Source of the DNA: a virus
DNA: 25,305 nucleotides
IMG/VR virus record: IMGVR_UViG_3300037963_006561
Coordinates: 1-25,305 of that record
Direction: 5' to 3' (one strand)
Each line of letters opens with the position of its first letter. Position 1 is the stretch's first letter. Positions 1,112-20,100 of the stretch are shown one piece after another. The position numbers and the translations under genes were made by a program. The notes below the pieces were generated by a model. The model did no database searches and was not told the DNA's origin. It was given only the letters and a program-made list of their open reading frames with translations.

Positions 1112-1163
1112 TGATTATGCACAACGATTTGAAAGCAGGATAGAAAAATCTTAAAGAATAAGG

Positions 1164-1171
1164 TATAAATA
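1164..1171 (+). promoter_or_regulatory. T4-type late promoter before gp25
   Basis: This is a perfect TATAAATA octamer in the 78-base gap between the 156-aa gene and gp25, continuing as TATAAATAAATAAA. T4-like phages use this single -10 type element with the gp55 sigma factor and the gp45 clamp for late genes. Transcription would start a few bases downstream, leaving a leader of roughly a dozen bases before the ATG at 1190. No strong Shine-Dalgarno sequence is visible in that leader. It probably drives gp25-gp6-gp7 as one unit, since no other copy was seen before gp6 or gp7. Confidence 0.85.
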
Positions 1172-1189
1172 AATAAAAACTCCTTGTAA

Positions 1190-1591
1190 ATGGCAATCCA
1201 AAGGATATCAAGAGCATTTAAAGACATTAGTTTGTCCTTTGATGCACATCCTGTCACCAAAGATCTACTAGTTCTAAAGAATGAAAACGCGATTCGTAGA
1301 TCGGTGAGGAATATTGTGGAAACTATCCCAACAGAAAGGTTTTTTAATTCATTATTTGGATCTGAAGTTAGAGATAGTCTATTTGAATTTGTAGATTTTG
1401 GTACTGCATCAGCAATTCAAAATCAAATTTTAGTTTCACTTGAAAATTTTGAACCAAGAATTGGAAATGTAGAGGTAAATGTTTTTCCTCGTCCAGATCA
1501 AAATTCATTCAATGTAACTGTTATATTTGATATTATTGGTCAGGAGTTTCCAACTCAAGAATATTCGTTCCTATTAGAGGCAACAAGATAA
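1190..1591 (+). CDS. 25: Baseplate wedge subunit gp25
   Basis: This 133-aa protein matches the GPW/gp25 family (T4 gp25 is 132 aa). Residues 30-60 (AIRRSVRNIVETIPTERFFN...FGS) correspond to the conserved helix-turn region in which T4 has 'IKNSLLGIITTRKGSRPF...FG'. The family hallmark Glu-Pro-Arg is present at residues 88-90 in NFEPRIGNVEVNVFP. In contractile injection systems this core interacts with the gp6/gp7-type wedge bundle and the sheath, and the EPR motif is needed to initiate sheath assembly on the baseplate. It is a virion structural protein with no signal peptide. It is the first gene after a late promoter, and gp6 follows after a single base (TAA-T-ATG), so the two are probably translationally coupled. 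The start at 1190 gives the family's normal length. Confidence is high from both motif and neighbours. Confidence 0.96.
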   Translation: MAIQRISRAFKDISLSFDAHPVTKDLLVLKNENAIRRSVRNIVETIPTERFFNSLFGSEVRDSLFEFVDFGTASAIQNQILVSLENFEPRIGNVEVNVFPRPDQNSFNVTVIFDIIGQEFPTQEYSFLLEATR

Positions 1592-1592
1592 T

Positions 1593-3503
1593 ATGCCTTT
1601 TACTAAGTATACAAATCTAGACTTTGATCAGATAAAGTCATCCATCAAAGATTATCTCCGTGCAAATTCTAATTTCACTGACTTTGATTTTGAAGGATCT
1701 AACTTTTCTGTCTTAATAGACACGCTAGCATATAACACATATATCACAGCATTCAACTCAAATATGATTGTGAATGAATCCTTCTTGGATTCTGCAACTC
1801 TCAGAGAGAATGTTGTATCATTGGCAAGAAATATTGGTTATGTGCCTCGCTCTAGAACCTCTGCAAGGGCACAAATCTCATTTTCGGTACAAAGACCTGA
1901 TGGAGATTCATCCGCCCAGGTGACTCTTAGTAGAGGTCTTGTATGTACCGGAACTAGTTCTAACAGCAATTTTGTGTTTTCAATACCAGAAGACATTACC
2001 AGAAATTTTGTTGATGGGGTTGCAACTTTTGATAATATTGTAATCTATGAAGGAACATATTTAACAAAACAATTTTTATATGATGGATCTCTCGATCAAA
2101 AATTTATCCTTAATAACTCTTTTATAGACACTTCTACTCTTAAAGTATACATTAAAAAAGAAAATGATAGTGGTATAGGAATTGAATATTCTTTGGTTGA
2201 TAATATTGTTAATGTAAAATCAAACTCTCAAATTTATCTTATACAGGAAGTGCAAGATGAAAAGTATCAATTACTTTTTGGGGATGGATTAATTGGAAAA
2301 AAACTTGGAACTGATAGAAATTCTGATGGCAACATCATAACGGCAAATTATATCGTATCAAATGGTTCTGATGGCAACGGAGTTAGTAATTTTTCTCTTG
2401 CTGGAAGTTTTTTAACCTCTGATGGAAACAATATTAATCCATCTACGATAACAATCACTACGAATCAGAAATCTCAAAATGGATCTGAGATAGAATCGAT
2501 TGATTCCGTTAGATATTTTGCTCCAAAAATATATTCTGCACAATCAAGAGCAGTTACTGGCCGTGATTATGAAGCAATCATCAAAATGATCTACCCAGAC
2601 ACCGAATCTGTGGCGGTTGTTGGTGGGGAAGAGATGGAACCACCACAATTTGGAACTGTAAACATCAGTATAAAACCAAAAAATGGAACTTTTGTCTCAG
2701 ATTTTAATAAATCTAGAATTTTATCACAATTAAAACAATATACAGTCTCTGGAATCAATCAAAAAATTACAGATTTGAAAATTCTTTATGTTGAAATTGA
2801 TTCTTCCGTTTATTACGACTATTCTCGAATATCGACTGTCGAGACACTCAAAACAAATGTTCTTAATTCTCTAAATGAGTATTCAAACTCGGTAGATATT
2901 AATAAATTTGGTGGTAGATTCAAATATAGTAAAATTCAACAAATTATTGACAACACAAATACAGCAATAACTTCAAATATCACCAAAGTGAAAATTAGAA
3001 GGGATTTAAAGGCAGTAGTAAATCAATTTGCCCAGTATGAACTGTGTTATGGAAACAGATTCCATGTAAATAATAGTGGATATAATATTAAATCAACTGG
3101 TTTTAGAATTGCAAATGATTCCGATGTGGTTTATTTGACAGATATTCCCAATCTTGACGGAAGAACGGGAGTTTTATCAATTGTGAAACCACTCGATAGT
3201 CAAAATATAAAAGTTGTTGTAAAATCAGCAGGAACAGTTGATTATATGAAAGGTGAGATAAATCTTAATACAATAAAAATTGTTTCAACGGAACTCCAAA
3301 ATAACATTATTGAAGTTCAGGCATTTCCAGAGTCAAATGATATAGTTGGACTTAAAGATTTGTATCTTAATTTTAACGTCTCTGCAAGTGCAATAAATAT
3401 GGTGAAGGATGTTATTGCATCGGGAGATGAAATATCGGGAACGGTATTCAATAGAGATTTTTACACATCAAGTTATCTAAACGGAAATTTAATAAGAGAG
3501 TAA
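1593..3503 (+). CDS. 6: Baseplate wedge subunit gp6
   Basis: At 636 aa this is close to T4 gp6 (660 aa). The N-terminal 90 residues carry the signature I know from cyanophage gp6: DFDFEGSNFSVLIDTLAYNT, then FLDSATLRENVVSLARNIGY. Around residues 305-370, FAPKIYSAQSRAVTGRDYEA followed by YPDTESVAVVGGEE resembles the baseplate J/gp6 core, where a crossover RAVT-x-x-DYE element sits. In T4 two gp6 copies and one gp7 form the helical core bundle of each wedge, and gp6 dimers join wedges into the inner ring. The gene lies between gp25 and the gp7-like giant gene with one-base gaps on each side and no promoter of its own, so it should be made at matched levels with them. The start codon follows the gp25 stop directly, and a GAGG within gp25's last codons may serve as ribosome-binding site. 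I see nothing broken or fused. Confidence 0.96.
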   Translation: MPFTKYTNLDFDQIKSSIKDYLRANSNFTDFDFEGSNFSVLIDTLAYNTYITAFNSNMIVNESFLDSATLRENVVSLARNIGYVPRSRTSARAQISFSVQRPDGDSSAQVTLSRGLVCTGTSSNSNFVFSIPEDITRNFVDGVATFDNIVIYEGTYLTKQFLYDGSLDQKFILNNSFIDTSTLKVYIKKENDSGIGIEYSLVDNIVNVKSNSQIYLIQEVQDEKYQLLFGDGLIGKKLGTDRNSDGNIITANYIVSNGSDGNGVSNFSLAGSFLTSDGNNINPSTITITTNQKSQNGSEIESIDSVRYFAPKIYSAQSRAVTGRDYEAIIKMIYPDTESVAVVGGEEMEPPQFGTVNISIKPKNGTFVSDFNKSRILSQLKQYTVSGINQKITDLKILYVEIDSSVYYDYSRISTVETLKTNVLNSLNEYSNSVDINKFGGRFKYSKIQQIIDNTNTAITSNITKVKIRRDLKAVVNQFAQYELCYGNRFHVNNSGYNIKSTGFRIANDSDVVYLTDIPNLDGRTGVLSIVKPLDSQNIKVVVKSAGTVDYMKGEINLNTIKIVSTELQNNIIEVQAFPESNDIVGLKDLYLNFNVSASAINMVKDVIASGDEISGTVFNRDFYTSSYLNGNLIRE

Positions 3504-3504
3504 T

Positions 3505-4434
3505 ATGATAGAAACTGGATTTGAATCTAGAGTTAAGGTTCAACAACTTATCGATAGTCAGTTGCCCGAATTTGTTTTGGATGAAAATCCAAAATCGGTA
3601 GAATTTTTAAAGCAATATTATATTTCTCAAGAATATCAAGGTGGTCCAACTGATATTACAGATAATTTAGATCAATATCTAAAACTTGATAATTTAACAC
3701 CTGAAGTAATAGTTGACACCACACGCACTACGTCAGGAATTACCTCTACGGACACTACAATCGCCGTAAACAGCACTAAAGGGTTTCCTAATGAATATGG
3801 TCTCTTTAAGATAAACAATGAAGTTATAACCTATACTGGCATAACTACAAATTCATTTACTGGTTGCCAACGTGGTTTTAGTGGCATCACTTCATATCAT
3901 AGTGATTTGAATCAAGAAGAACTTGTATTTTTAGATTCTTCAAGAGAAGATCACTCAAAAGATGATGTAGTTCATAATTTAAGTTCTCTATTTTTAAAAG
4001 ATTTTTATAAAAAATTAAAATTTACTTTTGCTCCGGGTTTAGAAGACGTTGATTTTGTCAAAGAATTAAATGCTGGAAACTTTATAAAAGAAGCAAAATC
4101 ATTTTATCAGTCAAAAGGAACTGATGAATCATTTAGGATTTTGTTTAATGTTCTCTATGGTGCAACACCTAGAGTAGTTAATTTAGAAGAATATTTAATT
4201 AAACCATCTTCTTCAAATTATTTGAGAAGAGAAGTTGCTATTGCTGAAGTTATTAGTGGGGATCCATCAAAACTTGTTGGTCAAACGATAGTAAAATCTA
4301 CTGATTCGGGAACAACTGCTGCGATATCAGAAATAGAACCATTTACAAGAGAAAATAAGCAATATTTTAAACTTTCTCTTTTTGTTGGATATGATGATTC
4401 TTCAACTATTGAAGGAACTTTTAATATAACTCCT
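3505..4434 (+). other. gp7 wedge-core segment, part A (N-terminus of the giant protein)
   Basis: Residues 1-310 open with LIDSQLPEFVLDENPKSVEF and LKQYYISQEYQGG, a start typical of gp7-like proteins of many myoviruses. One 'INNE...RG' module (about residues 70-150) is inserted. The helical stretch LFLKDFYKKLKF, then FIKEAKSFYQSKGTDESFRI and LFNVLYG, follows and parallels the T4 gp7 segment around 'FFESRSYDFYSTKG'. In T4 this region forms the bundle with two gp6 chains. The alignment is by eye and from memory. Confidence 0.8.
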
Positions 4435-7400
4435 AGTACAAAAAATATTGAAACTGTCGCTATTGGCGCATCAGTAATTACTGTTGATTCCACAATAGGT
4501 TTTGCACAAACTGGAATGGTTATATCTGGTATTAATAGTATCAGTTATACAGATAAAAGCATTAATCAATTTATTGGATGTACTGGAGTCGGTGCCACGA
4601 TTTCTGCCGCAAGTAATGTAAGATCGGATGAAATTTATTTTGGATTTGAAAATGGAGACCCGGATAAAAAAGTTGAGATAAGATTGACCGGAGTGTTGTC
4701 AAAATTTGTCCAAATATCCGAAGAACTTAATGTTTCTGAAAATGATATTATTTCAGTAAAAAATATTGGAGATTTAATTGAGAATCCTACCACTGGAGAA
4801 AAAACAAATAAGGAAATTTTCGCCAACTCTTGGATTTACAATACTAGTTCAACTTTTGAAGTAGAAAGTTTTGGTAATAATTTAACATTAACCTTAAAAA
4901 GCGAAATTGATAAATCCAGTTTAAAAAAAGGTGATAGTGTTGAAATTATTCAAAAAGGTGGAAGTGATGATGGAAAAGTTGTATATCCAACATCATCTAC
5001 TCCCACAACCGTAACTGACATCTCCTCAGACAACAAATCGATTAGTTTAAATAATTTTACATTTAATGCGGATAGTTCTGTAGATTATAGTTTGAGAAGA
5101 AAAATTAATAAAGTTAGTAGCGAATTTACTCCGATTGAATTTGGAAATGATGTAATTACCGGTGATGTGCAAAATGTTTATACTGATTTAGATGGAAAAC
5201 ATGCTTATGTTGCATCTAATTCTTTACCATCAAAAACACCGGGGATAACCACATCATTTACTTATGAAATAACTAAAAAAATTAACTCTGCTTCTATTGA
5301 TTCTGAGACAAGTTTAGGTGATCGCAATAGTTCAAATAATTTTACAACTATAACTTTTGCAGATGATGCTCCATTCGTCACTGGAGATAGAGTTTTTTAT
5401 AAACCAGATGGAGATCCTCTTGTTGGTTTAATTGAAGGATCTTACTTTGTAGAAATTTTACCAACCAATAAGAAAAAAATTAAGTTATACAATTCTAGAG
5501 TTTTTGTCGGAACAGAAAGTTACTTAACATTTTTAACTCCATCCTCTGGAATTGGAAAACATACTTTCACATTATTTGAACACAAATCTGGAGAAATTGC
5601 TCCACAAAAAATATTTAAAAAATTCCCCCTACCTCCCAATAACAAAAATGGAGTTAATGAATTAACTGAACCAGATAATTCAACTGGAATGTTGATTAAT
5701 GGTGTAGAAATCATCAATTACAAATCTAATGATGTTGTATATTATGGTCCGTTAGAGTCGATAAGTGTTTTAAATGGTGGACGTGGATATGATGTAATCA
5801 ATTTACCCAATCTAGTAGTTTCTGCTGGATTTGGATCCACGGCATTGTGTCGTCCAGTGATTCAAGGATCTATTGAAAGAATTGATGTTGATGTTTTAAA
5901 TTTTGATATTGATTCTGTAGAGTCAGTAAAAATAACAGGTGGTAATGGTAGTGGTGCAAATCTTAACGCGATTGTTCAGAAAAGAGTTAGAGAAGTATTT
6001 TTTGACGCACAACTAACAGCAAATAATGGTGGAATTGATAATAATACAAATCAAATTACATTTTTAACTGATCATAATTTTATTAATGGTCAAGAGGTAG
6101 TGTATGATTCCAATGGAAATCAAGGAATAGGAGTTGGAATCGGAACTTCTTCTCTAGTTGATTCGGCAATTTATTATGCAAAGGTTGATAATAATACTAC
6201 TATTCAATTATTTGAAAGTTTTGATGATTATTCTTCAAATACAAATGTTGTCGGACTGAGTACCCTTTACACGGCAGGTATTCATAAATTTAAAACTAAT
6301 GATAAAACAAAAACCATATCTTCAATTGATGTCATCGATGGTGGAAGTGGATATACCAATAGAAAACTAATTGTTAAACCAAGTGGAATATCAACATCAA
6401 AAGATATAATTAACTTTATAGATCATGGATTTAATGATGGTGATGTAGTTTTGTATTCCTCTGACGGAACACCAATTACCGGATTGACAACATCAACAGG
6501 GATCACAACTACATCTGTTCAATATAAAATTATAAAAATTGATAATGATTCTTTCAGAGTTGCAGATATTGGAGTTGGAGGAACATCTCCATCAAATTAT
6601 GAAAGAAAAAATCATTCCAAATTGGAATCAACTGGAGTTGGATATCAAAATTTTGCATTTCCGGATATTGAAATTTCATTAGAATTTACTTCCACTGGAT
6701 TGGGGACAGATACACAAAATAGATCAGTTGTAGCGACTCCTGTGGTGAGAGGATCATTAATTGATGCATATGTTTATGAAACTGGAACTGGATATGGATC
6801 TAGCACGATTAATCTTGAGAGAAAACCACTAATTACCATACAAACTGGTAGAGACGCTCAATTAAAACCCATTATAATTAATGGATCTATTGATTCTGTA
6901 AATGTTCAATTTGGAGGATTTGAATATTTTTCAGCTCCAGAATTAGAGGTATTTGATAATAGTGAATCTGGATCTGGGGCAATATTGCGACCAGTAATAT
7001 CATCTCAAGGTAAGATTACAGATGTTAAAGTTATTAACGCTGGAATAGGATACTCTGCTGCTTCAACTGGAATCAAAGTTTCGCCTAAGGGATTTGGAGC
7101 AACATTCGATACAACTATTAGAAAATTAAGAGTAAATAATATCCATAAGTATGGAAATGAAATACTCAAAGAAAGGAACGATAAACTGCAATACAACATA
7201 TGTGGATATTATGATGATTTAAGATCCACTTTTAATGAAAGTCAATCCAAAGTATCTGGGATAATTGGGTGGGCTTATGATGGAAATCCAATATATGGTC
7301 CATTTGGAAATTCGGATTCGTTTAACACTAGTTCAGATCCAGCTCGTTTAACTTCCGGATATGTAGAAAATTCATCTAGTGTGATTGATAGACCTGCAGG

Positions 7401-10400
7401 ATTTAGTGCTGGATTTTTCGTTGAAGATTATGAATATACTAATTCTGGAGATTTGGATGTCCATAATGGAAAATTTGTAAAAACAACAGATTATCCAAAA
7501 GGAGTCTATGCATATTTTGCCACTATTGACAGTAGTGGGGACCCACAATTCCCATATTTTATTGGAAATACTTTTAGATCTAACACTTTAAATGAAAATA
7601 AAACTTTAGATCAAAAATTTGATTTTAAAAATTCTCAATTATTAAGAAACACTTTCCCGTATAGAGTATCCGATCCGTTTGCTGACAACGATTTTCTAAT
7701 TGAAACTAATGAAATTTCAAGACAAAAAGCAGTTATTGAATCTGTAACAGAAGGTCCTATTGAAAAAATTAATATCATTAATCCTGGCACAGGGTTCAAA
7801 GTAAATGATGTTTTAAATTTTGATAGTGATGGCACTGATGGAGATGGAATTATTGCAAGAGTATCATCAATATCAGGAAAAAGTATTGATGATATACAAA
7901 CTTCTGTAGAAACTTATGAAAATTCTATTTTCACTTGGAATGGAGGAAATGAAATAAAAGTTTCAATATTACCTCAACATAATCTGAGAGATAAAGAATA
8001 TGTTACTATCTCAGGATTTAGTAGTTCTTTATCTGAATTGAATAGAAATTTTCAGATTGGAATCTCATCTTTCTATTCAAATCTTTCTTCATTAATAAAA
8101 GGATCGGATGCATCTCCAGGAGCAGCCACCACAGAAATATACGTGTCTCAAATACCAGATTCAGTTTCTGTTGGTAGCAGTGTTGGAATTGGTTCAGAAA
8201 CTTTGCAGGTATTAAATATATTCCCCAATTTGAATATTCTCAGAGTTAAGAGAGGTTTGGTGGGAACTTCTCATACTGCCACAACAAAAATCTCATATAT
8301 TCCAGATTCATTTACAATAACCAAAAATGTAGATTATTTTGAATCTGCGGTCAATGATAAAATATATTTTAATCCAAAAGAATCTGTTGGCGTTGGAACT
8401 ACTGTTGGAATATCCAGTTCTATGACATTTATATTTGGAGATTCCTCTGTTACTAGAGAAATTCCAACTAAGAGGATTTATATTGAAAATCATCCATTTG
8501 CAACAAATCAACCAGTCAATTTAACTGTTCCTACAGGTGGAGCAATATCGATTTCAACTTCACCAACTGGAACACCATTTAATTTGCCAATATCCGGAGT
8601 CACTACTACAGTATACATTGTAAGAAAAACAATTAACTCAGTTGGCATTAAGACAGGAATTGGACCCGAATTTGATGAAGTATTTTTCCGCAATAATGGA
8701 AGTGATAGTGATGAATATCTATTTGAAAGTATAAAAACACAAATTAAATCCAGAGTCCAAAGAATAAATTCTGTTGTATCTATTTCTACCGTAGGTCTTT
8801 CAACTGTTGCGCCGGGTGCCACGTACCATAAGTTGTTGACAGGCGATACAATAAAATTAAACCTTCAACCAAAACTTATTTCTGGAATTGGAACAGATGC
8901 TTCAGTAATTGTAAAAAGAGATACTATCTCCAATAATATTTTAATAAATCCACTTACAATTGATCCATCAGGAATTAATACTACCACAAATCAAATAACA
9001 ATACTATCACATGAATTAAAAACTGGAGATAAGGTTAGTTATGCAGCATCATTACCTGCTTCGGGATTGTCCACAGGTTCTTACTATGCATATAGAGTTA
9101 ATGAAAATGTCATTCAATTGGCAGAAACTCTTAGTGATGCAAAATTAGATCCTCCAACTATTGTAAGTATTGGAAACACTGGAGGAGGAGAGCAAACAAT
9201 TTCTCCAATCAATCCAAGAATTGCAATAACGAAAGATAATAGTGCAATTTTTGATTTGTCGGACTCCACATTATCTGGATATGATTTTAAAATTTATTAT
9301 GATAATGAATTTAATAACGAATTTGTTTCTACAGGATCTACTAGTGGAATAACTATCGCAGGAGTTGGAACTATTGGAGTTAGTGCCAACGCTTCATTAA
9401 CTATTAATTACAACACAGATCTTACCAATATACTACCTACAAGATTATATTATAATTTAGAGAAATCAGGTTACATTAGCACAGCAGACACTGAAGTTGA
9501 AAATTATTCTGAGATACTTTATATTGATAGTTCTTATAATTCTTCATATAAAATTTCTGGAGTAGGAGCAACTACATTTAATATTGCTCTTAATGAGGTT
9601 CCTGAAAGATTGTTCTATAAATCGAGTGAGTGTTCTTCTTTAGAATATACTACAGAATCATTAAGTGTAGAAGGTCCTATTAATAAAATCAACATTGTCT
9701 CTGGGGGATCTGGATATAAGAAGTTGCCGAATTTTGTTGGATCTTCAAATACGACAGCAAAAGATGCATCTTTAATTGCCAAATCTGGTTCAGTTGGGAA
9801 TGCAAAGAGAGTTAGAATAATAAATCAAGGATTTGAATATTCTTCTGATAGAACACTGCAACCAAACGCAAACGTACCAGTTTTAGTTTCTACTAAAGAT
9901 TCAAACACTATAGGAATTGTTACTGTTATTAGTGGTGGAAGAAATTACATAACTCCACCAAAACTCGTAGTTGTTAATACATCCTCAAAACAAAAAATTG
10001 ATAATGGTATTATAGAAGCAAATCTTACCGGAAACTCTATAACTGAAGTTAAAATTATTCAAGAACCAAAGGGTCTTCCATCTGAGTCAGTAGGAATTTT
10101 TGCTGAGGAAAATACTAATGGAATCAGTATTCAAAAAATTTCCCAACAATCTGATACTAAGTTTATATGCAAATTGACTACACCAGTTCTTGGATTCTCC
10201 ACAAGCGCGTTTAGCGTTGGGGAAGAAGTTTTTATTGAAGGGATTCAAAAAGTTGGTGCCGCAGGTTCAGGTTTTAATTCTGCAGACTATGGATATCAGT
10301 TTTTTGTCGTTGAGGAATATAAAAACTCATCTTTTATTGGAACCGTTACTCAAGATGAAGTAACAATCAATTTAAGTAGTTTAACAACTAATACAGGCAC

Positions 10401-13400
10401 AGCAAAAACTGTTCAAGATTCTCTTGGGACGATTATAAAAAAATCTGATTATCCAACATTTGCTGTTAGTCAAAAAGAATCTAAATTCTCCATAGGAGAA
10501 AAATTAAATCTTAATGAATCTGTTGCAGATTTGCGAATAACTGGTATTGACGGCGATAATATAAAAATAACGGGTGATGTTTTTGGATTATCTCCAAATG
10601 ATGTTCTTACGGGACAAACAAGTGGAAATATTGCTTCCATAGAAAATATTGTCAGAAATGAAGGAAGATTTGAAGTTGATTTCTCTAGTAAGAAAAATAT
10701 TGGATGGGATGACAACATTGGAAAATTAAGTCTTGATGATCAAGTGATTCCTGATAATGATTATTATCAAAATCTTTCTTATACAATCAAAAGTCCTATT
10801 GAATGGAGAGAATTAAGGACTCCAGTCAATAGTCTTGTCCATACTAGTGGTCTTAAAAATTTTGCTGATGTTGGGATAGTATCAACTGCAAACATTGGAG
10901 TTGGTAATTCGGATAATTTAGTTATTGCTCGTGATTTAATTGAAGAACTTAGAGTAGATACAATTAATAATTTTGACAATGTGTTAGATATTGATGTTGT
11001 AGGATCTCAATCTAAATTTCTAAAATTAAAATCAAAAAAATTAACAGACTTTACTCTTTCCAAGAGTAACGTTGTATTAAAGATTGATGATATTTCCGGC
11101 CTATTTTCAAATGATGATAATGTCACTAATAATGAATTTGTTGATATTTTCAAATTTGTTGCTTCTGATTCTTATGATGATGTTTTAGTTAGAATAACTA
11201 ATTCAGAAAATAGTGAAGTTCAATTAACAGAATTGACTATTATTAGCAATAATAGTGGAGATAATTTCTTATTGGAAAAAGGGGAAATTGCTAATATTGG
11301 ATCATCTCCAACTTCAGTAATAGATGAAAATTACGGAACTTTTTCCGTCACCGATAGCAATTTCCTTAGATTTACTCCTAAAGATGCTAGTGATACTGAT
11401 TATGATATTAAATATCTTAAAAATACTTTTGGTTCCTCTACATCTGGTGTAGGAACAACTTCAATTGGATTTATTGATCTAACTAATGTTGCTGGAGTTG
11501 TAACTTCCGGAGGTTCCGGTATAACAAGTTCTATTATTGGAGTTGCAACGGATAAATTTACATCACTGCATGTCAATACACAAATTATTCAATCTAATAC
11601 TGATGAATTAAATTTTGTTGAGTTGTACATAACTCATGACGGAGAAAATACATTTCTTGCAGAATCATTTTTTGATACTGATGAAAATAGTTCTTCTTTC
11701 AATTTTATTGGATCTTTTGGTGCAAATATCAGTTCTGGTGTTCTCAATTTAAATTATACAAATGATACTGCAAATGATGTTCAGTTGAAATCAAGAATTA
11801 TCGGATTTGGAACAACATCAGTAGGCACAGGAATTCACAGATTTATAACACCATCTCAACCAGAGGGTGCGGAAAGAAGTGCAGTAATTAGATCTGCGTA
11901 TGAAACTACAGTTTCTGCTGCCGCGACGACAGTTATCAGTTTTGATAGGAATTTGTTTAATTCTGTTAAATCAGTGGTCGAAGTAAGTATGGGTTCGACA
12001 AAGGCAGTTCATAACGTATTGGCTTTACAGGATAATTCTTTTGACACATATGTTCAACAATCATCTTTCCTTTCTGCTGGAGGAATAGGTGTAACCGATG
12101 GAAGAAGTGGTATGGGAACATTTGGTGTAGAATACTCTGGAGAAAACTTTATATTGAAGTTCTATCCTGATGCAGCAATGACATCAAATCTGCAGGTTTC
12201 ATCTCTCAATGAAATTCTATACACAGAAATAGACGTATTTAATACTGCCCCAGAACTTCAATATGGGGATAATATTCAATCACTTGAAATTAAACTTTAT
12301 AATGCAAAAAATGGTAGTAGAATTAATAAAACTGATTTTGTTGCAAAAAATGAAGGCACTCCAATTTTTGCAAAATCTTTTAATCCAAAAAATTCCACTC
12401 AATTAGATCTTTCTACCGGAACATTCACTATACAGAATCACTTCTTTAGAACCGGTGAAGAGTTGTCATATACTCCAAAATCAACTTTTGTTGGAGTTGG
12501 ATCAACTGCAATGACGTATGGCAGTGGCACCCCATTACCATCAATCGTATATGCTATTAGAGATAATGATGACGAATTCAAACTTGCCACAACTAGAGCA
12601 AATGCAGAAGCAGGTGTAAATGTATCTTTTGGATCCTCTGGTGAAGGAAATGCTCATGAATTGGCAATGTTATTGGGTAATGAAAAAACCATAATAACAC
12701 TGGATGGAATTGGTCAATATCCGCTTAAATTTACTCCAATTGCACATACATTATCAGGAAATGCCGGTGGACAAATTGGAACAGCATCTACGATATTTGC
12801 TTTAAGTGGAATTTCCACAATAATTCCGACAGATCTTCTAAAAATTAATAATGAATTTATGAAGATTCAAAACATAGGTTTTGGAACTACTGCAGTTGGA
12901 CCAATAACAGGAATTGGTCAATCAACTCTTGTTCAAGTTGAAAGAGGTGCAGTTGGATCTATATCAACATCTCATGCAGATGGAAGCGAAGTTAGAATTT
13001 TTAAAGGTTCTTATAATATTGTTGGTTCCAAAATACACTTTGTAAATCCTCCTAGAGGATCTTCTTCAATCGAAAGAGATGATAGAAACTTAGAACCAGA
13101 AACTTCTGATTTTACTGGAAGAGTATTTTTAAGAAATAACTATGACACCAATCAAATATATGATGATATTTCTGATCAATTTACTGGAATTGGAGCAACA
13201 TTTACGCTAACTGTTGGTGGTGCAAATACCACAGGAATTGGAAGCACCGGGGGAAATGGAGTTCTGTTTATCAATGGAATTTTCCAAACACCTTCAACTT
13301 CTAATAATCCATTCAACAATTTTAAATTTGATGATGAAAGCACTGCAGGAATAACAAGCGTCATCTTTAGCGGAATAACCTCTGCAGACGGATCTCGCCA

Positions 13401-15522
13401 AATATCAGATATTGATGTTAATCAAAATCAACTTCCAAGAGGAGGAGTAATTGTTTCTCTAGGTTCTTCTGGTGGATTGGGATATGCACCTTTAGTTGGT
13501 GCTGCAGTGAGTGCTATAGTTGGTGCTGGTGGTTCCATAGCAGGATTTACTACAGCATTAACCGGAGGAACTTTTGGATCTGGATATAACGGATTAGTAT
13601 CTATTGGAGTCAGCGTTCATGAGGATGGGCACACCGGTGCTGCTGCAGTGGTGTCAGCAACTGCTTTAGTTGGAGCTGGCGGAAGTTTATCCCTTACTGT
13701 AGTTGGAAATGGAGGATCTGGATATTCTAATCCTCAAATTATGGTTTCGGAACCAACTTATGAAGGTCTCGAAATAGAGGGAGTCTCAAGGTTGGGACTT
13801 GGAAACACTACATTAAGTGGCACAGGATTATTACTCGATATTGGAGTTGGTGCTGCAACCACTACAGGAATAGGGTCGGATACTTTTGAAGTTAATAGTT
13901 TTAGTATTGCAAGAAACGGATATGGATTTAGGGAAGGTGATGTTATTAGACCAGTTGGTTTAGTTACACACAGCACTCTATCTTCAACAACCTCCGAATT
14001 GTTATTAACAGTTGAACGAGTATTTGATGATTCCTTTGCTTGTTGGCAATTTGGAGAATTTGATTTTATTGACTCAATTGCAAATTTCCAAGATGGAATA
14101 AGAACTAGATTCCCACTGTTCTATAATGAGGAACTCATAAGTTTCGAAAAACAGGAAGGAAGTAGAGTAAATCTTTCTAATGCATTATTAATAGTCATTA
14201 ATGGAATTATTCAAGATCCTGGAGTAGCATACTTATTTGAAGGTGGAACATCATTTAGTTTTACTGATCCTCCTCAAATTGAAGATAGAGTTGATATTTT
14301 CTTCTATAGAGGTACTAGAAACGATGATGATCAATTAGTTACAAGTATAAATCAAACGATTAAACGAGGTGATAGTGTAAGAGTTTATAAAAATAATGCA
14401 ATTGATGGAACTATAACTCAAAATAGCAGAACTGTGTTTGATTTATCATTCTCTGATAAATTTGAAACAAATCTGTATAGCGGAGTTGGAATAGACCAAA
14501 ACAATTTCAAACCAATGTCTTGGACAAAACAAAAAGTTGACACCGTTATTAACGGTGAAATTGTTCAAAAAGATAGAGATTCTATTGAAGCACTAGTTTT
14601 TCCAACAGCAAAGATTATTAATACTATTGAAACTACTGATAGTGAAATATTTGTCGAAGATGCTGATTTATTTGATTACAATTCGGAAACAGAATTGTCT
14701 GGTTTAATTGTATCTGGTTCTGCAGATCCAATATCGGCTGCTGCAACAGCAGTGGTTTCTACTGCTGGAACAATTTCATCATATATTGTCTCTGGCGGTA
14801 GTGGGTATACTGCAGTGCCCACAGTCTCTGTTCTTGCTCCTCCAGAAATTGGAGTAGGAGTAGGAACCACTGCTACTGCAACTGCTACCATATCCAATGG
14901 GGCCGTAACTGCAATTACGGTCAATAACCCAGGATTAGGATATACAATTGCTCCAAATGTAATTATTTCTCTTCCTAATCCCACTGTCGAAACAGTATCT
15001 AGTATTGATGTGATTCAAGGATTCTCTGGAATTGTCACTGGAATTAGCACCGTCAATGCTCAAGGAATTGGAACTTTAGCAATTCAATTTAACTTGCATA
15101 GATTTGATGCAACAAATTACACTGATTTAAATATTGGATATCCAATTTATATTTTTGACACTCAAGTTGGAAATGGTGTAACCTCAGTTGCAAATAATGA
15201 TTTATCCATAGTTGGTGTGGGCACAACATTTGTTGATAATATATACTTTATTCAGGAACTTTCTTCTGTTGGTGCTGCGGGTTCAATTGTTTGTTATGTG
15301 GATTCTGGAACATCAATAGTTGGTGTTGCAACTACATCAAACTCTAACAATCCTGTGGGTAAATTCTCTTGGGGTAGACTTGCGGGAATTTCTAGAGCAA
15401 CTTCTCCAGTTTCTATAGCAGTTACTGGAAATGTGGTTGATGTCGGACTGACAACCTTCCCAACTATTCAAAGAAGAGGTGTTGGTCTGAGAGATAGTGG
15501 TGCTCTTCCTAAAAGGTTATAA
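3505..15522 (+). CDS. 7: Giant gp7-like baseplate wedge protein (4005 aa)
   Basis: The first roughly 300 residues and a short segment near residue 2420 match the C-terminal wedge-core part of T4 gp7 (1032 aa) as I remember it. Shared elements are 'FY-x-SKG-x-(D/E)-SF...LF-x-VLY' at residues 200-219, LVGQTI at 257-262, and YYQNLSYTIKS followed by HTSG at 2420-2449 (T4: SYYVMKIKSN, then HPVG). Gene order (6, this, 8) agrees. Between and after these parts the chain consists of beta-rich modules: about 13 GGxGY units, six to seven H-x(4)-G-(D/E/Q) units, four 'INNE/RG' units, a YHYH-like domain (about 1213-1360), and two 'INGI.Q.P' units (near 3256 and 3566). It ends in FPTIQRRGVGLRDSGALPKRL-type residues. 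There are no signal peptide or convincing membrane helices; hydrophobic runs near 3320-3400 are Gly/Ala-rich repeats. The T4 N-terminal half, including its propeller, is not recognisable. The frame is open for 12 kb with uniform composition, so I see no sign of an artefact. Confidence 0.88.
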   Translation: MIETGFESRVKVQQLIDSQLPEFVLDENPKSVEFLKQYYISQEYQGGPTDITDNLDQYLKLDNLTPEVIVDTTRTTSGITSTDTTIAVNSTKGFPNEYGLFKINNEVITYTGITTNSFTGCQRGFSGITSYHSDLNQEELVFLDSSREDHSKDDVVHNLSSLFLKDFYKKLKFTFAPGLEDVDFVKELNAGNFIKEAKSFYQSKGTDESFRILFNVLYGATPRVVNLEEYLIKPSSSNYLRREVAIAEVISGDPSKLVGQTIVKSTDSGTTAAISEIEPFTRENKQYFKLSLFVGYDDSSTIEGTFNITPSTKNIETVAIGASVITVDSTIGFAQTGMVISGINSISYTDKSINQFIGCTGVGATISAASNVRSDEIYFGFENGDPDKKVEIRLTGVLSKFVQISEELNVSENDIISVKNIGDLIENPTTGEKTNKEIFANSWIYNTSSTFEVESFGNNLTLTLKSEIDKSSLKKGDSVEIIQKGGSDDGKVVYPTSSTPTTVTDISSDNKSISLNNFTFNADSSVDYSLRRKINKVSSEFTPIEFGNDVITGDVQNVYTDLDGKHAYVASNSLPSKTPGITTSFTYEITKKINSASIDSETSLGDRNSSNNFTTITFADDAPFVTGDRVFYKPDGDPLVGLIEGSYFVEILPTNKKKIKLYNSRVFVGTESYLTFLTPSSGIGKHTFTLFEHKSGEIAPQKIFKKFPLPPNNKNGVNELTEPDNSTGMLINGVEIINYKSNDVVYYGPLESISVLNGGRGYDVINLPNLVVSAGFGSTALCRPVIQGSIERIDVDVLNFDIDSVESVKITGGNGSGANLNAIVQKRVREVFFDAQLTANNGGIDNNTNQITFLTDHNFINGQEVVYDSNGNQGIGVGIGTSSLVDSAIYYAKVDNNTTIQLFESFDDYSSNTNVVGLSTLYTAGIHKFKTNDKTKTISSIDVIDGGSGYTNRKLIVKPSGISTSKDIINFIDHGFNDGDVVLYSSDGTPITGLTTSTGITTTSVQYKIIKIDNDSFRVADIGVGGTSPSNYERKNHSKLESTGVGYQNFAFPDIEISLEFTSTGLGTDTQNRSVVATPVVRGSLIDAYVYETGTGYGSSTINLERKPLITIQTGRDAQLKPIIINGSIDSVNVQFGGFEYFSAPELEVFDNSESGSGAILRPVISSQGKITDVKVINAGIGYSAASTGIKVSPKGFGATFDTTIRKLRVNNIHKYGNEILKERNDKLQYNICGYYDDLRSTFNESQSKVSGIIGWAYDGNPIYGPFGNSDSFNTSSDPARLTSGYVENSSSVIDRPAGFSAGFFVEDYEYTNSGDLDVHNGKFVKTTDYPKGVYAYFATIDSSGDPQFPYFIGNTFRSNTLNENKTLDQKFDFKNSQLLRNTFPYRVSDPFADNDFLIETNEISRQKAVIESVTEGPIEKINIINPGTGFKVNDVLNFDSDGTDGDGIIARVSSISGKSIDDIQTSVETYENSIFTWNGGNEIKVSILPQHNLRDKEYVTISGFSSSLSELNRNFQIGISSFYSNLSSLIKGSDASPGAATTEIYVSQIPDSVSVGSSVGIGSETLQVLNIFPNLNILRVKRGLVGTSHTATTKISYIPDSFTITKNVDYFESAVNDKIYFNPKESVGVGTTVGISSSMTFIFGDSSVTREIPTKRIYIENHPFATNQPVNLTVPTGGAISISTSPTGTPFNLPISGVTTTVYIVRKTINSVGIKTGIGPEFDEVFFRNNGSDSDEYLFESIKTQIKSRVQRINSVVSISTVGLSTVAPGATYHKLLTGDTIKLNLQPKLISGIGTDASVIVKRDTISNNILINPLTIDPSGINTTTNQITILSHELKTGDKVSYAASLPASGLSTGSYYAYRVNENVIQLAETLSDAKLDPPTIVSIGNTGGGEQTISPINPRIAITKDNSAIFDLSDSTLSGYDFKIYYDNEFNNEFVSTGSTSGITIAGVGTIGVSANASLTINYNTDLTNILPTRLYYNLEKSGYISTADTEVENYSEILYIDSSYNSSYKISGVGATTFNIALNEVPERLFYKSSECSSLEYTTESLSVEGPINKINIVSGGSGYKKLPNFVGSSNTTAKDASLIAKSGSVGNAKRVRIINQGFEYSSDRTLQPNANVPVLVSTKDSNTIGIVTVISGGRNYITPPKLVVVNTSSKQKIDNGIIEANLTGNSITEVKIIQEPKGLPSESVGIFAEENTNGISIQKISQQSDTKFICKLTTPVLGFSTSAFSVGEEVFIEGIQKVGAAGSGFNSADYGYQFFVVEEYKNSSFIGTVTQDEVTINLSSLTTNTGTAKTVQDSLGTIIKKSDYPTFAVSQKESKFSIGEKLNLNESVADLRITGIDGDNIKITGDVFGLSPNDVLTGQTSGNIASIENIVRNEGRFEVDFSSKKNIGWDDNIGKLSLDDQVIPDNDYYQNLSYTIKSPIEWRELRTPVNSLVHTSGLKNFADVGIVSTANIGVGNSDNLVIARDLIEELRVDTINNFDNVLDIDVVGSQSKFLKLKSKKLTDFTLSKSNVVLKIDDISGLFSNDDNVTNNEFVDIFKFVASDSYDDVLVRITNSENSEVQLTELTIISNNSGDNFLLEKGEIANIGSSPTSVIDENYGTFSVTDSNFLRFTPKDASDTDYDIKYLKNTFGSSTSGVGTTSIGFIDLTNVAGVVTSGGSGITSSIIGVATDKFTSLHVNTQIIQSNTDELNFVELYITHDGENTFLAESFFDTDENSSSFNFIGSFGANISSGVLNLNYTNDTANDVQLKSRIIGFGTTSVGTGIHRFITPSQPEGAERSAVIRSAYETTVSAAATTVISFDRNLFNSVKSVVEVSMGSTKAVHNVLALQDNSFDTYVQQSSFLSAGGIGVTDGRSGMGTFGVEYSGENFILKFYPDAAMTSNLQVSSLNEILYTEIDVFNTAPELQYGDNIQSLEIKLYNAKNGSRINKTDFVAKNEGTPIFAKSFNPKNSTQLDLSTGTFTIQNHFFRTGEELSYTPKSTFVGVGSTAMTYGSGTPLPSIVYAIRDNDDEFKLATTRANAEAGVNVSFGSSGEGNAHELAMLLGNEKTIITLDGIGQYPLKFTPIAHTLSGNAGGQIGTASTIFALSGISTIIPTDLLKINNEFMKIQNIGFGTTAVGPITGIGQSTLVQVERGAVGSISTSHADGSEVRIFKGSYNIVGSKIHFVNPPRGSSSIERDDRNLEPETSDFTGRVFLRNNYDTNQIYDDISDQFTGIGATFTLTVGGANTTGIGSTGGNGVLFINGIFQTPSTSNNPFNNFKFDDESTAGITSVIFSGITSADGSRQISDIDVNQNQLPRGGVIVSLGSSGGLGYAPLVGAAVSAIVGAGGSIAGFTTALTGGTFGSGYNGLVSIGVSVHEDGHTGAAAVVSATALVGAGGSLSLTVVGNGGSGYSNPQIMVSEPTYEGLEIEGVSRLGLGNTTLSGTGLLLDIGVGAATTTGIGSDTFEVNSFSIARNGYGFREGDVIRPVGLVTHSTLSSTTSELLLTVERVFDDSFACWQFGEFDFIDSIANFQDGIRTRFPLFYNEELISFEKQEGSRVNLSNALLIVINGIIQDPGVAYLFEGGTSFSFTDPPQIEDRVDIFFYRGTRNDDDQLVTSINQTIKRGDSVRVYKNNAIDGTITQNSRTVFDLSFSDKFETNLYSGVGIDQNNFKPMSWTKQKVDTVINGEIVQKDRDSIEALVFPTAKIINTIETTDSEIFVEDADLFDYNSETELSGLIVSGSADPISAAATAVVSTAGTISSYIVSGGSGYTAVPTVSVLAPPEIGVGVGTTATATATISNGAVTAITVNNPGLGYTIAPNVIISLPNPTVETVSSIDVIQGFSGIVTGISTVNAQGIGTLAIQFNLHRFDATNYTDLNIGYPIYIFDTQVGNGVTSVANNDLSIVGVGTTFVDNIYFIQELSSVGAAGSIVCYVDSGTSIVGVATTSNSNNPVGKFSWGRLAGISRATSPVSIAVTGNVVDVGLTTFPTIQRRGVGLRDSGALPKRL
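7141..7590 (+). other. YHYH-like domain inside the giant gp7-like protein
   Basis: Residues 1213-1362 contain IIGWAYDGNPIYGPFG (1253-1268), then DLDVHNGKF (1316-1324) and YPKGVYAYFAT (1330-1340). These follow the order of the YHYH domain (GWAxDGxPIYGP ... LDxxNG ... YPxGxYHYH). The name-giving YHYH is YAYF here (1335-1338), so both histidines of that motif are replaced; one His remains nearby at 1320. The role of this domain in phage baseplates is not known to me. Domain assignment is confident; loss of metal binding is an inference. Confidence 0.82.
10741..10860 (+). other. gp7 wedge-core segment, part B (split core)
   Basis: Residues 2413-2452 read QVIPDNDYYQNLSYTIKS, then W-R-E-L-R and VNSLVHTSGLKNF. 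Gp7-like phage proteins commonly have a (I/L)QD-x-DYYQ-x-(F/L)SY-x-I-x-S segment followed by V-x-x-x-x-HP-x-G; T4 gp7 has SYYVMKIKSN and VIRFVHPVGF. The Tyr-Tyr, Ser-Tyr, Lys-Ser and His-x-x-Gly positions agree, although the usual Pro after His is Thr here. It lies about 2160 residues after LVGQTI, compared with roughly 80 in T4. Confidence 0.7.
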
Positions 15523-15564: not shown

Positions 15565-17112
15565 ATGGCTGCGGTAGTAACAGATCAATTTAGAATATCC
15601 AATGCAAATAATTTTGTAGACTCGGTGTCCAATACGAGTAACTCTTATTATGTTTTTCTGGGATTACCAAATCCTTCCAATCCAGTTTCTGGTTTTGGTA
15701 GAACTACTTCGGACAACGAATGGAGTACTAATACTCCAGTTCCCATAGATAATTTACAATTTAACTCCCATTTTAGGGACACTGCTCTATTTGGAAAAAA
15801 AGTAACAACTTCCAATGTTAGAAGATTAATAAGAAAAGTTTCTTGGTCTAGTAATACACGTTATGATATGTATAGGCATGACTATAGTATCATAAATCCT
15901 GCTCCAAACTCAAATTTAAGTAGATTATATGATTCAAATTATTATGTAATAAATAGCGATTTTAGAGTTTATATTTGTATTGATAATGGTTCATCAGGAA
16001 CAAATTTAACTGGAAATGTATCTAAGGATGAACCAACTTTTACAGACCTAGAACCAACGGCAGCTGGAACTAGTGGAGATGGATATGTTTGGAAATATCT
16101 ATTTTCAGTCGCTCCGAGTGACATTATAAAATTTGATTCAACTGAATATGTTGTTGTTCCAAATGATTGGGCGACTTCAACTGACAGTCAAATTTTAAGT
16201 GTTAGAGAAGCTGGAGATTCTGACATAAATTTGAATCAAATTAAAAAGGTATATATTGCTAATGGTGGATCTAATTATAGTTCGGGAGTAGTAAATATTA
16301 ATGGGGATGGAACTGGTGCTAAAGTATCAATTGAAGTGGATTCTGCAGGAACAATAACTTCTGCTGTTATGACTGCTGGTGGAAGTGGATATACTTATGG
16401 TATTGTTGATCTTGGTTCACTTCAACCATCAGGAACTTTGTCAGACCCAGCAAAATTAATTCCCATTATTCCACCATCTAAAGGTCATGGGTATGACATT
16501 TATACTGAATTAGGAACTGATAAGGTATTGGTTTATGCTAGATTTGATGACTCCACAAGAGATTTTCCAGTTGATACGAGATTTACTCAAGTAGGCATTA
16601 TAAAAAATCCACAACAATTTTCGTCCACGGCAATTTATACTGCCAGTGATTATTCATCTTTATTCTCATTGAAACTCAATTCAGTCACCTCCACTCCGGT
16701 TGTTGGTGCTGCAATTTCACAATCGGTTTCTGGAGGTGCTGCCAAGGGATATGTTGCATCATATGATTCTGAAACTAGAGTTTTAAAATATTTTCAAGAT
16801 AGATCTTTATATTTTGGAAATTCTAAAGATGAAACTGATAGCAGTGATGTTAGTTCCTCAAGTAAGTTGCTTTCTTTTGAATCATCATCAGCGAATATTT
16901 CTCCATTTACTGGATCTATTGATACAGGATTCTCTGGAATTAAAACCACAGTAAACACCAAAGAAATTGATTTGGGAGTAACTTTTACAGATGGACTTGC
17001 AAATCCAGAGATAAATAAAAAGACAGGGGAAATTATTTACATTGATAATAGACCTCTCATACAGAGAGACTCTCGCCAAAAAGAAGACGTTAAAATCATT
17101 CTGGAATTCTAA
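15565..17112 (+). CDS. 8: Baseplate wedge subunit gp8 with two insertions (515 aa)
   Basis: The framework matches T4 gp8 (334 aa) from memory in four places. These are the start (VTDQFRISNANNF / YYVFLG), GDGYVWKYLF then EYVVVP at residues 171-195, F-T-Q-V-G-I-I-K-N-P at 340-349 (T4 FRQISIITNP), and the end GEIIYIDNRP (488-497) closing with a hydrophobic ...KIILEF. The 180 extra residues form two blocks. Residues about 205-300 hold two GGxGY units (NGGSNY at 233-238, GGSGY at 272-276); about 355-485 is a Ser/Gly-rich beta-type segment with SGGAAKGYVASYD. In T4, gp8 dimers sit on the outer wedge and bind gp7 and gp10. Here it follows the gp7-like gene, has its own late promoter, and is five bases from the next gene. 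The start at 15565 fits the family and the promoter. Codon use is like that of its neighbours. Confidence 0.9.
   Translation: MAAVVTDQFRISNANNFVDSVSNTSNSYYVFLGLPNPSNPVSGFGRTTSDNEWSTNTPVPIDNLQFNSHFRDTALFGKKVTTSNVRRLIRKVSWSSNTRYDMYRHDYSIINPAPNSNLSRLYDSNYYVINSDFRVYICIDNGSSGTNLTGNVSKDEPTFTDLEPTAAGTSGDGYVWKYLFSVAPSDIIKFDSTEYVVVPNDWATSTDSQILSVREAGDSDINLNQIKKVYIANGGSNYSSGVVNINGDGTGAKVSIEVDSAGTITSAVMTAGGSGYTYGIVDLGSLQPSGTLSDPAKLIPIIPPSKGHGYDIYTELGTDKVLVYARFDDSTRDFPVDTRFTQVGIIKNPQQFSSTAIYTASDYSSLFSLKLNSVTSTPVVGAAISQSVSGGAAKGYVASYDSETRVLKYFQDRSLYFGNSKDETDSSDVSSSSKLLSFESSSANISPFTGSIDTGFSGIKTTVNTKEIDLGVTFTDGLANPEINKKTGEIIYIDNRPLIQRDSRQKEDVKIILEF
16240..16410 (+). repeat. Pair of GGxGY modules inserted in gp8
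   Basis: Residues 226-282 contain KKVYIANGGSNYSSGVVNIN and TSAVMTAGGSGYTYGIVDLG, 38 residues apart. They sit between the conserved EYVVVP and VGIIKNP blocks, a place where T4 gp8 has unrelated sequence. The second unit shares 18 identical bases with a unit in the giant gp7-like gene (TGGTGGAAGTGGATATAC at 16377-16394 and 6339-6356). Confidence 0.8.
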
Positions 17113-17117
17113 AGAAA

Positions 17118-20100
17118 ATGTCACAAAAAACAAATTTAAATATTAATCCATATTATGATGATTATAATTCTGAAAAGAATTTTTATAAAGTTTTATTTAA
17201 ACCAGGATTTCCAGTTCAAGCGAGAGAACTGACAACGTTACAGTCCCTCTTACAGGGGCAGGTAGAGTCTTTTGGTAGTCATATTTTTAAGGAAGGATCT
17301 GTAGTAGTTCCTGGAAATATTTCTTATGATAGTCAATTCTACTCTGTAAAATTAAACGCAACCAGTTCAGGAATAGATGTTGCATTATATATTGAGAACT
17401 TCGTAAATAAAAAAATAGTAGGATCTGCATCAGGAACTACTGCCAAAATTCAACGTGTTGAATTTGCTGATGACAATAATTTTGAATTTTTAACTATCTA
17501 CGTCAAATATCTAGATTCTGATAATGATTTTGAATTTACACCATTTGAAGATGGAGAATCTTTATCTTGTGTAGACAACGTAACCTATGGTAATACTACG
17601 ATTACTGCAGGTACAGAATTTGCATCTTTGATTGCGTCTGATGCAACTGCTATTGGTTCTGCAGCTTCTATTGGGAAGGGAATTTATTTTATTAGAGGTT
17701 ATTTTGTTAATGTTTCAAAACAAACTATACTTTTAGATAATTATACTAATACTCCATCATATAGAGTTGGTTTAAAAATTGATGAGTTAATTGTTGGGTC
17801 CAAAGACGATGAGTCTTTATTTGACAATGCAAAGGGATTTACAAATTTTGCTGCACCTGGTGCTGATAGATTTAAAATAAATTTAACTCTTACTAAAAAA
17901 TTAATATCTGATACTAATGACACCGACTTTGTTGAACTTTTAAGACTGAAAAATGGTAAAATTCAAAAAATTACCACAAAAACGCAATATAATCAAATTC
18001 GCGATTATATGGCAGAAAGAACGTATGATGAGTCTGGTGATTACGCTGTAGAACCATTTGATCCATCAGTTCATAACTCATTAAATAATAGACTGGGCAA
18101 TAATGGTCTTTTCTTCTCTAATGAATTAACAGAGCAAAGAAATGTGCCATCTGAAGATTTGATGTGCTTTAAAATATCACCCGGAAAAGCGTATGTGAGA
18201 GGATATGATGTAGAAAAAGTTTCGACCACAATAATTGATGTAGAAAAACCAAGAGATACTCAAAAAGAATCTAATGTAACTATTCCATTTGAAATGGGTA
18301 ATTTACTCAGAGTAAATAATGTTACTGGTGTTCCACAAAATAAAGCAACAATTCAATTACTGAATAGAAAAAAAGGTGATACTGAGTCGGTGATAGGAGA
18401 CGCAAGAGTATATACATTTAATCTTACTGATGCCGCATATTCTGGAGCAGCAACAAAGTATGATTTGAGATTATATGATGTTCAAACATATACCAAAATA
18501 ACTTTAAATAAGGATGTAGATGCCACTGACATGCCTGATGGATCATACATTAAAGGCAAGAGTAGTGGTGCTAGTGGATATCTTGTTGATGCTGGTGGCG
18601 GAACAGAATTCATCAACTTGAGAGGGACATCTGGTTCTTTTGCCAAGGGTGAACAAATAACTGTCAATGGAGTTGATTTTTCAAGAACAATTGTTAATTT
18701 TGTAGAATATGGAACTCAAAATATTAAATCAGTAAGACAAGCAGCAGGTGGTGGTTTTCCGCAGTTTACAGCAGACTCAGTTCTTGAAAAATTTAGAATG
18801 CCTAATGGCATAGATCAAATATCAATTCCATTACTTGGAAACTCAGGTACTAGTGGCGTTGCAACAGTAACTGCTACAGGAAAAGTTTTTAGTGGAATAA
18901 GAACTGATACGATAATTTCATATCAAAGACCAGGATTTAGCACAGAAACATTTAACAGAGTTTCATCAGTTGCTGCAGATGGACTATCAATAGAATTAAG
19001 TCCAATTAACGCTGGTGCTGCTGTCACTAATGTATATGATGGGAAATTAGCTACAGGATCTGGAAATTTATTGGTCACACCATTCCCTCGTGGACCAATT
19101 ATCGATGCAGAAAACGGATATTTATTTGCACAACTGCCCGACATTAATATTTCTTCTGTAGATTTACTTAATTCAACATTTACAGTTGTTGAACAAATCA
19201 CGGAGGGGGAAACTAGTGGTGCAGGAGAACTAACTTTCAACCTTTCAAGTATTTCTGGAATTACTAGCGCATCGTTTGCAACTTTTGATCAGGAAAGATA
19301 TGGAGTTCATTATTCAACTGGTATAGCAGGAACAATTACAGATGATACTTTTGATCTTACGAATAATATTGTAACTATTAGAGGTTTAAGGCCAAGTCAA
19401 AGTAATGTTGTCGTAAATACAACTCTTACAAAATTTGGTGTTCAAAGTAAAATTAAAAAATACAATAGAAGTCAAACTTTAAATATAACAAGATCAAAAT
19501 ATTCGGATTCTGGGGTTGGAATTAACACTTCTAATAATGATGGACTTAATTTTAACACTCAATATGGATTGAGAGTTCAAGATGAAGAAATTTCTTTGAA
19601 TTATCCAGACGTTGCAAAGGTTATAGCAATCTATGAATCTTTGGGAACAGGAAATCCCACTTTAGATAGATTTCAATTTACTTCAACTGCAAGTGTTCAA
19701 ACAAATGCAATAATTGGAGAAAATGTAGTAGGGAATTCTAGCAATGCAATTGCAAGAGTTGTTTCATCACCTTCAGCAAATAATTTAGAATTAGTATATT
19801 TGACTAATGATGTTTTTAGTGTTGGGGAAACAGTAACTTTCCAAGAATCAAATATAGTTACGGAAGTAGAATCCATTACATTGGGAAGTTATAAAGATGT
19901 AACTCAATTATTCAAGTTGGATAAGGGGCAGAAGGACGAATACTATGATTATTCTAGAATTGTTAGAAATAAAAATGTTTCTGAACCAACTCGTAGATTG
20001 TTAGTTGTTTTTGATTATTATTCTGTTCCATCTGATGATAATGGAGATGCATTTACTGTATTAAGTTATGATGAAGAGAGATTTGCACAGGACATACCAA

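Follow-up and report, generated by a model that had tools for sequence, protein, structure and literature searches.

Giant gp7 of a cyanophage-like myovirus: a T4-type baseplate wedge core split by an insertion that probably grew module by module

The two halves of a T4-type gp7 core, a component of the baseplate wedge, lie far apart within a single reading frame of a virus related to marine cyanophages. In T4-type baseplates, each of the six wedges has a gp6 dimer (two gp6 chains) joined by the gp7 core. We consider it quite likely that the core of this giant protein was split by an insert of beta-sheet modules that grew stepwise, that the two halves co-fold in the wedge, and that the protein also grew at other, separate sites. 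The protein is orthologous to T4 gp7 and belongs to a cyanophage-like myovirus; its core is interrupted at a single place that tolerates insertion, between a small region of beta structure and the segment YYQ..HPAG. According to this model, about 2,080 residues of GGxGY modules, FCCH-like modules and one YHYH domain would loop out at this position, and the two core segments should still pack and fold together in the wedge. The insert would have arisen through stepwise addition of modules at that one site.

The stretch of DNA analysed here (the window) has a length of 25,305 nucleotides and makes up most of a 25.6-kb virus record of IMG/VR. Five of its genes, all on the plus strand, encode a gp25-like baseplate wedge or sheath initiator protein (1190..1591, 133 aa; Pfam GPW_gp25, E 4.9e-12; PHROG 261), the baseplate wedge protein gp6 (1593..3503, 636 aa; Pfam Gp6-like_1st, E 4e-18; PHROG 219, baseplate wedge subunit), the giant gp7 (3505..15522, 4,005 aa, about 430 kDa), the baseplate wedge protein gp8 (15565..17112, 515 aa; Pfam Phage-Gp8, E 6e-13) and a structural protein of 2,500 aa (17118..24620; PHROG 358, function unknown). 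The gene at the position of the last one is annotated VrlC in related phages, namely after gp8 in S-SCSM1, phiM7 and HTVC008M. The order gp25-gp6-gp7-gp8 thus places the giant ORF between gp6 and gp8. Near the start of the window (4-660), a product of 218 aa matches PHROG 3704 (E 2.5e-106), which is named ferredoxin; at this length the product hardly looks like a ferredoxin, and the name may be a database slip.

The giant ORF is a single unbroken frame. Its residues 2-3372 match PHROG 2885 (“baseplate wedge subunit”), and its closest cultured relatives are two Synechococcus phages, S-SRM01 and S-SKS1, the latter with 69% identity over the first 331 residues. Over the same 331 residues, the identity with the counterpart in P-SSM2, a gene of 5,195 aa annotated as gp7, is 55%. 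Judged from these similarities and from the core profiles described below, the 4,005-aa ORF is orthologous to gp7, and the phage is a Kyanoviridae-like marine relative of T4. We rejected an assembly artefact as the source of the split, because the 4,005-aa ORF recurs unbroken, and with identical motif spacing, in three independent contigs (L008, L009 and L010).

The protein begins with the N-terminal part of the gp7 core (residues 1-60; 3505..3684), which the N-core profile covers likewise in the minimal gp7s of OC, pf16 and Mendera. In the following INNE/RG module, which we call growth site 1 (residues 61-150; 3685..3954), the profile match is gapped in these three phages. The first half of the core (FYQSKGTDESF..LFNVLYG..LVGQTI) comprises residues 151-313 (3955..4443). 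Growth site 2, the insertion of beta-rich modules, spans residues ~314-2395 (4444..10689; ~2,080 aa, ~224 kDa per copy). The second half of the core (LSLDDQVIPDNDYYQNLSYTIKS..VHTSG) comprises residues ~2396-2465 (10690..10899). The remaining residues, ~2466-4005, form a C-terminal extension (10900..15519; ~1,540 aa, ~161 kDa per copy) that varies in length among relatives. All these parts lie on the plus strand.

The motifs FYQSKG (200-205), LVGQTI (257-262), YYQNLSYTIKS (2420-2430) and HTSG (2446-2449) correspond in T4 gp7 to FYSTKG (734), LVGQTI (781-786), YYVMKIKS (861-868) and HPVG (884-887). From LVGQTI to YYVMKIKS, the spacing in T4 gp7 is 74 residues; between their counterparts here it is 2,157. 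A first-pass annotation of the window had put these distances at about 80 and about 2160 and had concluded that the gp7 wedge core is split by about 2,000 residues; our measurements bear it out, and so do the profiles, the insert-less relatives and the graded series at one site presented below. As the homologous core extends past the motifs of that annotation in both directions, the insertion proper comprises residues ~314-2395.

T4 gp7 (1,032 aa; PDB 5HX2, 5IV5) also follows gp6 and precedes gp8, and it carries the two core segments in the same order. However, it has no insert between the halves and carries its extra mass at the N-terminus, as an extension of about 640 residues, whereas the extra mass of the window protein lies inside and after the core.

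Homology of each half to T4 gp7 was assessed with profiles. An N-core profile built from the window family (residues 150-318) aligned with T4-type gp7 at 733-822 (hhalign, E 7e-9). With the controls, i.e., eight other T4 baseplate and tail proteins and the reversed profile, E was 0.1 or worse (0.1-0.8). The C-core of the window family matched minimal gp7s with E 1e-9; alone against T4 gp7, it aligned in the correct place at a sub-significant E of 0.04-0.1. A broad C-core profile, made from the second halves of 16 gp7s from named phages plus relatives, aligned with T4 864-896 at a score of 40.9 (E 2e-5), compared to at most 21.0 among 100 column-shuffled profiles and at most 19.8 among control proteins. 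Both segments that the first-pass annotation took for conserved parts of the core thus prove real. A profile match of residues 2413-2452 to the gp7 core exists as well; to reach T4, it has to pass through intermediate sequences.

Such intermediates are found among natural phages. By blastp, OC matched window residues 173-306 and 2412-2464, and pf16 matched 189-267 and 2412-2459. In short gp7s (OC p050 and IMG/VR loci between L136 and L158), the halves adjoin or stand one module apart. A profile of these short proteins aligned with the solved T4-type gp7 9F4A at 649-892 in a single alignment (E 3e-11) and with T4 gp7 5HX2 at 644-758 (E 2.5e-11). At the level of sequence comparison, the short natural gp7s with adjoining halves are the strongest link between the split core and T4 gp7.

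The Pfam family PF23786 (Baseplate_wedge) has both halves side by side in its model (~153-230 and 230-281) and finds them far apart within single frames of S-H34 and S-SSM6b. The N-core of the window matched positions 177-211 of this model at 18.9 bits (E 0.0011), under the curated cut-off of 27 bits, and the C-core of the window gave no PF23786 match. By Pfam's rule, the window gp7 is therefore not a member of the family, and OC, phiM7 and HTVC008M exceed the cut-off. When the N- and C-core regions of the window protein itself were searched by sequence against the PDB, nothing matched. The N-core profile also yielded second matches at 306-532 in giant gp7s; we rejected them as a second core, attributing them to the repeated INNE/RG module and profile drift.

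To place the insertion in context, we measured the gap between the same two profile positions in more than 150 gp7s. The two halves are about 20-30 residues apart in OC and six IMG/VR phages and ~0-30 apart in T4. In OC p050 and the IMG/VR loci L136-L140, both halves are present and collinear, as in the window, but the 20-30-residue gap marks an empty site without the insertion (L139, with a longer gap, is the exception). Intermediate gaps fall into classes of 100-110, 161-188, 254-294, 323-490 and 583-821 aa. Gaps of ~1,480-1,525 aa are seen in S-CAM4 and S-H34, of 2,007-2,288 aa in the window's clade, P-SSM2, S-SSM7, S-SCSM1 and Sf-CH8, and of 2,640-2,750 aa in Syn33 and S-SSM6b.

P-SSM2 and other Kyanoviridae gp7s of PHROG 2885 have the same split and an insert of ~2,150 aa, and they can be aligned along most of the window protein; they differ in being annotated as baseplate wedge initiator and in having a longer C-terminal extension. 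The gene of Pelagibacter phage HTVC008M (L098:33435-36485, NC_020484), which is its gp7, also contains both halves, with a 436-aa insert, but it is much shorter and bears the GenBank name “head closure Hc2”. This label probably stems from the shared GGxGY modules.

Relative to the insert-less type, L143, L147 and L158 have one extra stretch of ~77 aa, which is a single GGxGY module. As far as the alignments tell, one such module is the earliest visible step in the series. The GGxGY profile matches nearly every insert of 60 aa or more and none of the shorter ones. Below 1,000 aa, the number of modules does not rise smoothly with insert length (Spearman 0.17, p 0.07), so non-module sequence appears to have been added too. 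We also considered whether the insert originated from a duplicated VGQT-type module on its flanks and dropped the idea, since the short profile gave no consistent flanking pair.

We built a tree from the core columns only, leaving T4 out because its C-core was under the threshold there. On this unrooted tree, every insert longer than 1,000 aa lies on one side of a single branch, that of the cyanophages (SH-aLRT 99), and the insert size classes require 20 changes versus 72 with shuffled labels. The series of relatives suggests that the insert grew stepwise at one site, from ~20 to ~2,750 aa. Because the tree is unrooted, we infer rather than observe that the direction was growth and not loss; the insert-less T4-type gp7 supports it.

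Among 37 complete relatives, the insert has a length of 2,070 +/- 50 aa (2,007-2,288), and the C-terminal extension ranges from 1,433 to 2,651 aa. Minimal gp7s have no residues 61-150, and Syn33 and S-SSM6b have ~500 aa at growth site 1. The module 61-150 and the C-terminal extension would have grown separately from the insert. The first-pass annotation had correctly located growth site 2; it overlooked residues 61-150, the C-terminal 1,540 aa and the generality of the arrangement across the cyanophage clade.

Several relatives deserve mention in their own right. The longest among the gp7s compared is the 6,932-aa protein of S-SSM6b (L094:5276-26074), with ~500 aa at growth site 1, ~2,750 at site 2 and ~3,300 after the core. 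In S-SSM7 (L006:8759-27853), gp7 is divided: the first gene matches window residues ~9-3007, next comes a 1,023-bp gene annotated as tail fibre connector, and then a gene matching window residues ~3133-3991. The gene occupies at least two frames, with differing breaks, in S-SKS1 (L005:16001-28387), L040 (4780-4940), L085 (6280-6440) and L083 (3251-3899). These broken frames may be sequencing frameshifts or real gene fission. The locus L206 contains a 200-aa ORF (7995-8594) with the first core half only; since no second-half match was found in the locus, its gp7 may be broken or divided. In OC, the gene at the gp6 position, between gp25 and gp7 (L002:5431-7314), is annotated “T4-like gp7”, as is the true gp7 after it.

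The insert of the window protein contains GGxGY modules at residues ~740-795, 1075-1195, 1410-1465 and 2048-2195, and FCCH-like modules at 610-689, 833-931, 952-1050 and 1818-1897, with weaker ones at 1654-1808. A YHYH domain lies at ~1225-1345 (7177..7539, plus strand; Pfam PF14240, E 1.7e-22 at residues 1244-1342), with a score of 80.8 bits against a cut-off of 25 and with profile positions 87-183 of 193 covered. All three kinds of modules are where the first-pass annotation placed them. Residues 700-1460 are predicted to be almost all beta (pLDDT 82, pTM 0.67). This model had no credible match among solved structures (best E 3.7e-3, probability 0.10, TM 0.09), and its viral matches are giant cyanophage proteins, the best of them the baseplate wedge initiator of Bellamy (TM 0.69). 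Function cannot be read from the fold, because the modelled part has no solved relative. An AlphaFold model of the HTVC008M gp7 (1,015 aa, 15 closely related sequences) had a pLDDT of 36 and was discarded, and we drew no conclusion on packing from it.

The insert and the C-terminal extension would run outward from the wedge as beta-rich arms, with six copies per baseplate. Together the arms may make up an extensive periphery, stabilising the baseplate or carrying and positioning host-contact parts; the protein would then act as a rigid peripheral scaffold or armour. In 30 relatives, the mean pairwise identity is 49% in the insert versus 64-68% in the core. It varies between 39 and 63% among 100-aa bins of the insert, and no hypervariable patch was found there. 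This even conservation, together with the nearly constant insert length, favours a scaffold or armour over a fast-evolving hypervariable receptor binder. The “six large outgrowths” and the “host contact or armour” of the first-pass annotation are likewise what we would infer, and the “baseplate hub” to which it assigned them should read “wedge”.

The main rival to a scaffold or armour is an enzymatic or receptor-binding role. The core would be split in the same way, but the insert would chiefly be a host-contact device, with arms that bind receptors or degrade the envelope and with YHYH as an active metal-dependent hydrolase. YHYH domains are present here and in the inserts of S-H34 and S-CAM4, and YHYH has been predicted to be a tail-associated Zn-dependent hydrolase, with a Zn site of a conserved histidine triad plus an aspartate (PMC7824862). 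The growth sites also resemble the places at which spikes are attached in Vibrio phage XM1, where loop 80-106 and the C-terminal tail of the gp7 orthologue attach host-facing spikes (PMC10457771). This orthologue, the 242-aa gp17, has loop and C-terminal additions on a minimal gp7, as the window protein does, but they amount to tens of residues, not thousands, and the likeness follows the description in that paper only. However, the matched YHYH stretch of 40 relatives, which leaves out the N-terminal part of the profile, has no conserved histidine column (the best are kept in 23 and 19 of the 40), and the insert offers neither a hypervariable patch nor much variation in length. We therefore regard a chiefly host-contact role as unlikely, though it deserves to be taken seriously. 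The YHYH domain of the window itself lacks the histidine before SPIIGWAYDGNPIYG, which 19 of 40 relatives keep.

Giant gp7s do reach the virion in relatives. Mass spectrometry of virions found 91 unique peptides of ORF122 of S-CREM2 (1,938 aa; PMC10665884) and 71 peptides of S-SZBM1_208 (6,619 aa; PMC9146016), both taken here as gp7 by position, size and annotation, without alignment. These peptide counts are silent on whether the chain is intact, and the giant chain could be cut or made as separate polypeptides, with the core halves in different virion proteins. The gene is in two frames in L040 and L085, with breaks near window residues 1232 and 1136-1147, respectively; L083 has no continuous frame over ~1719-1978; S-SKS1 has four frames; and the C-terminal extension is a gene of its own in S-SSM7. 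Nevertheless, the frame is unbroken in dozens of contigs and in P-SSM2, S-SCSM1, Sf-CH8 and S-SSM6b, and the breaks fall at differing places and may be sequencing frameshifts, which makes separate polypeptides improbable.

Two other readings have very little left in their favour. The segment YYQNLSYTIKS..HTSG might be a mobile tail module whose likeness to gp7 is due to chance or module sharing, given its sub-significant match to T4 when taken alone and the GGxGY modules common to gp7 and gp8 (PHROG 460 matches both). The comparisons of sequences already contradict this reading: each phage has the segment a single time (189 places in 188 records, and 0 of 203 loci with two), within the gene that follows gp6 and behind the N-core. 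In the minimal gp7s whose match to T4 gp7 forms one alignment, it adjoins the N-core. According to one publication (PMC7029224), cyanophages and pelagiphages have no gp7, and VrlC takes its place; the giant ORF would then be an unrelated structural protein. This is hardly credible, as the gene that follows gp6 holds both core halves in the window, P-SSM2 and HTVC008M, and VrlC is a further gene, after gp8.

The preferred reading, a split gp7 core, can be taken further, though tentatively. One loop of a widespread T4-type wedge protein may have served as an evolutionary growth point, to which phages added beta modules one after another until the chain exits the core, runs through the periphery for ~2,100-2,750 residues and returns to complete the core. 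A single protein would then combine the core with a rebuilt outer baseplate, a part for which T4 uses other proteins.

Giant gp7s of cyanophages are already known, annotated and named. In the literature and records searched, we did not find the split core, the shared site or the stepwise series, and literature searches for cryo-EM of a cyanomyovirus baseplate or for a giant split gp7 found none.

The results correct the published statement that gp7 is missing from cyanophages and pelagiphages, as well as a misleading “head closure” label. Among the cyanophage virion proteins of 400-700 kDa, whose architecture lacks an explanation, one can now be interpreted as a small gp7 core that is opened at one place. 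With natural gp7s that range from insert-less to ~2,750 aa of insert, the growth of a tail machine can be tested stepwise, and cryo-EM gains a concrete prediction of where the chain exits and re-enters the wedge. The series also suggests how phages may enlarge the host-facing part of their tails.
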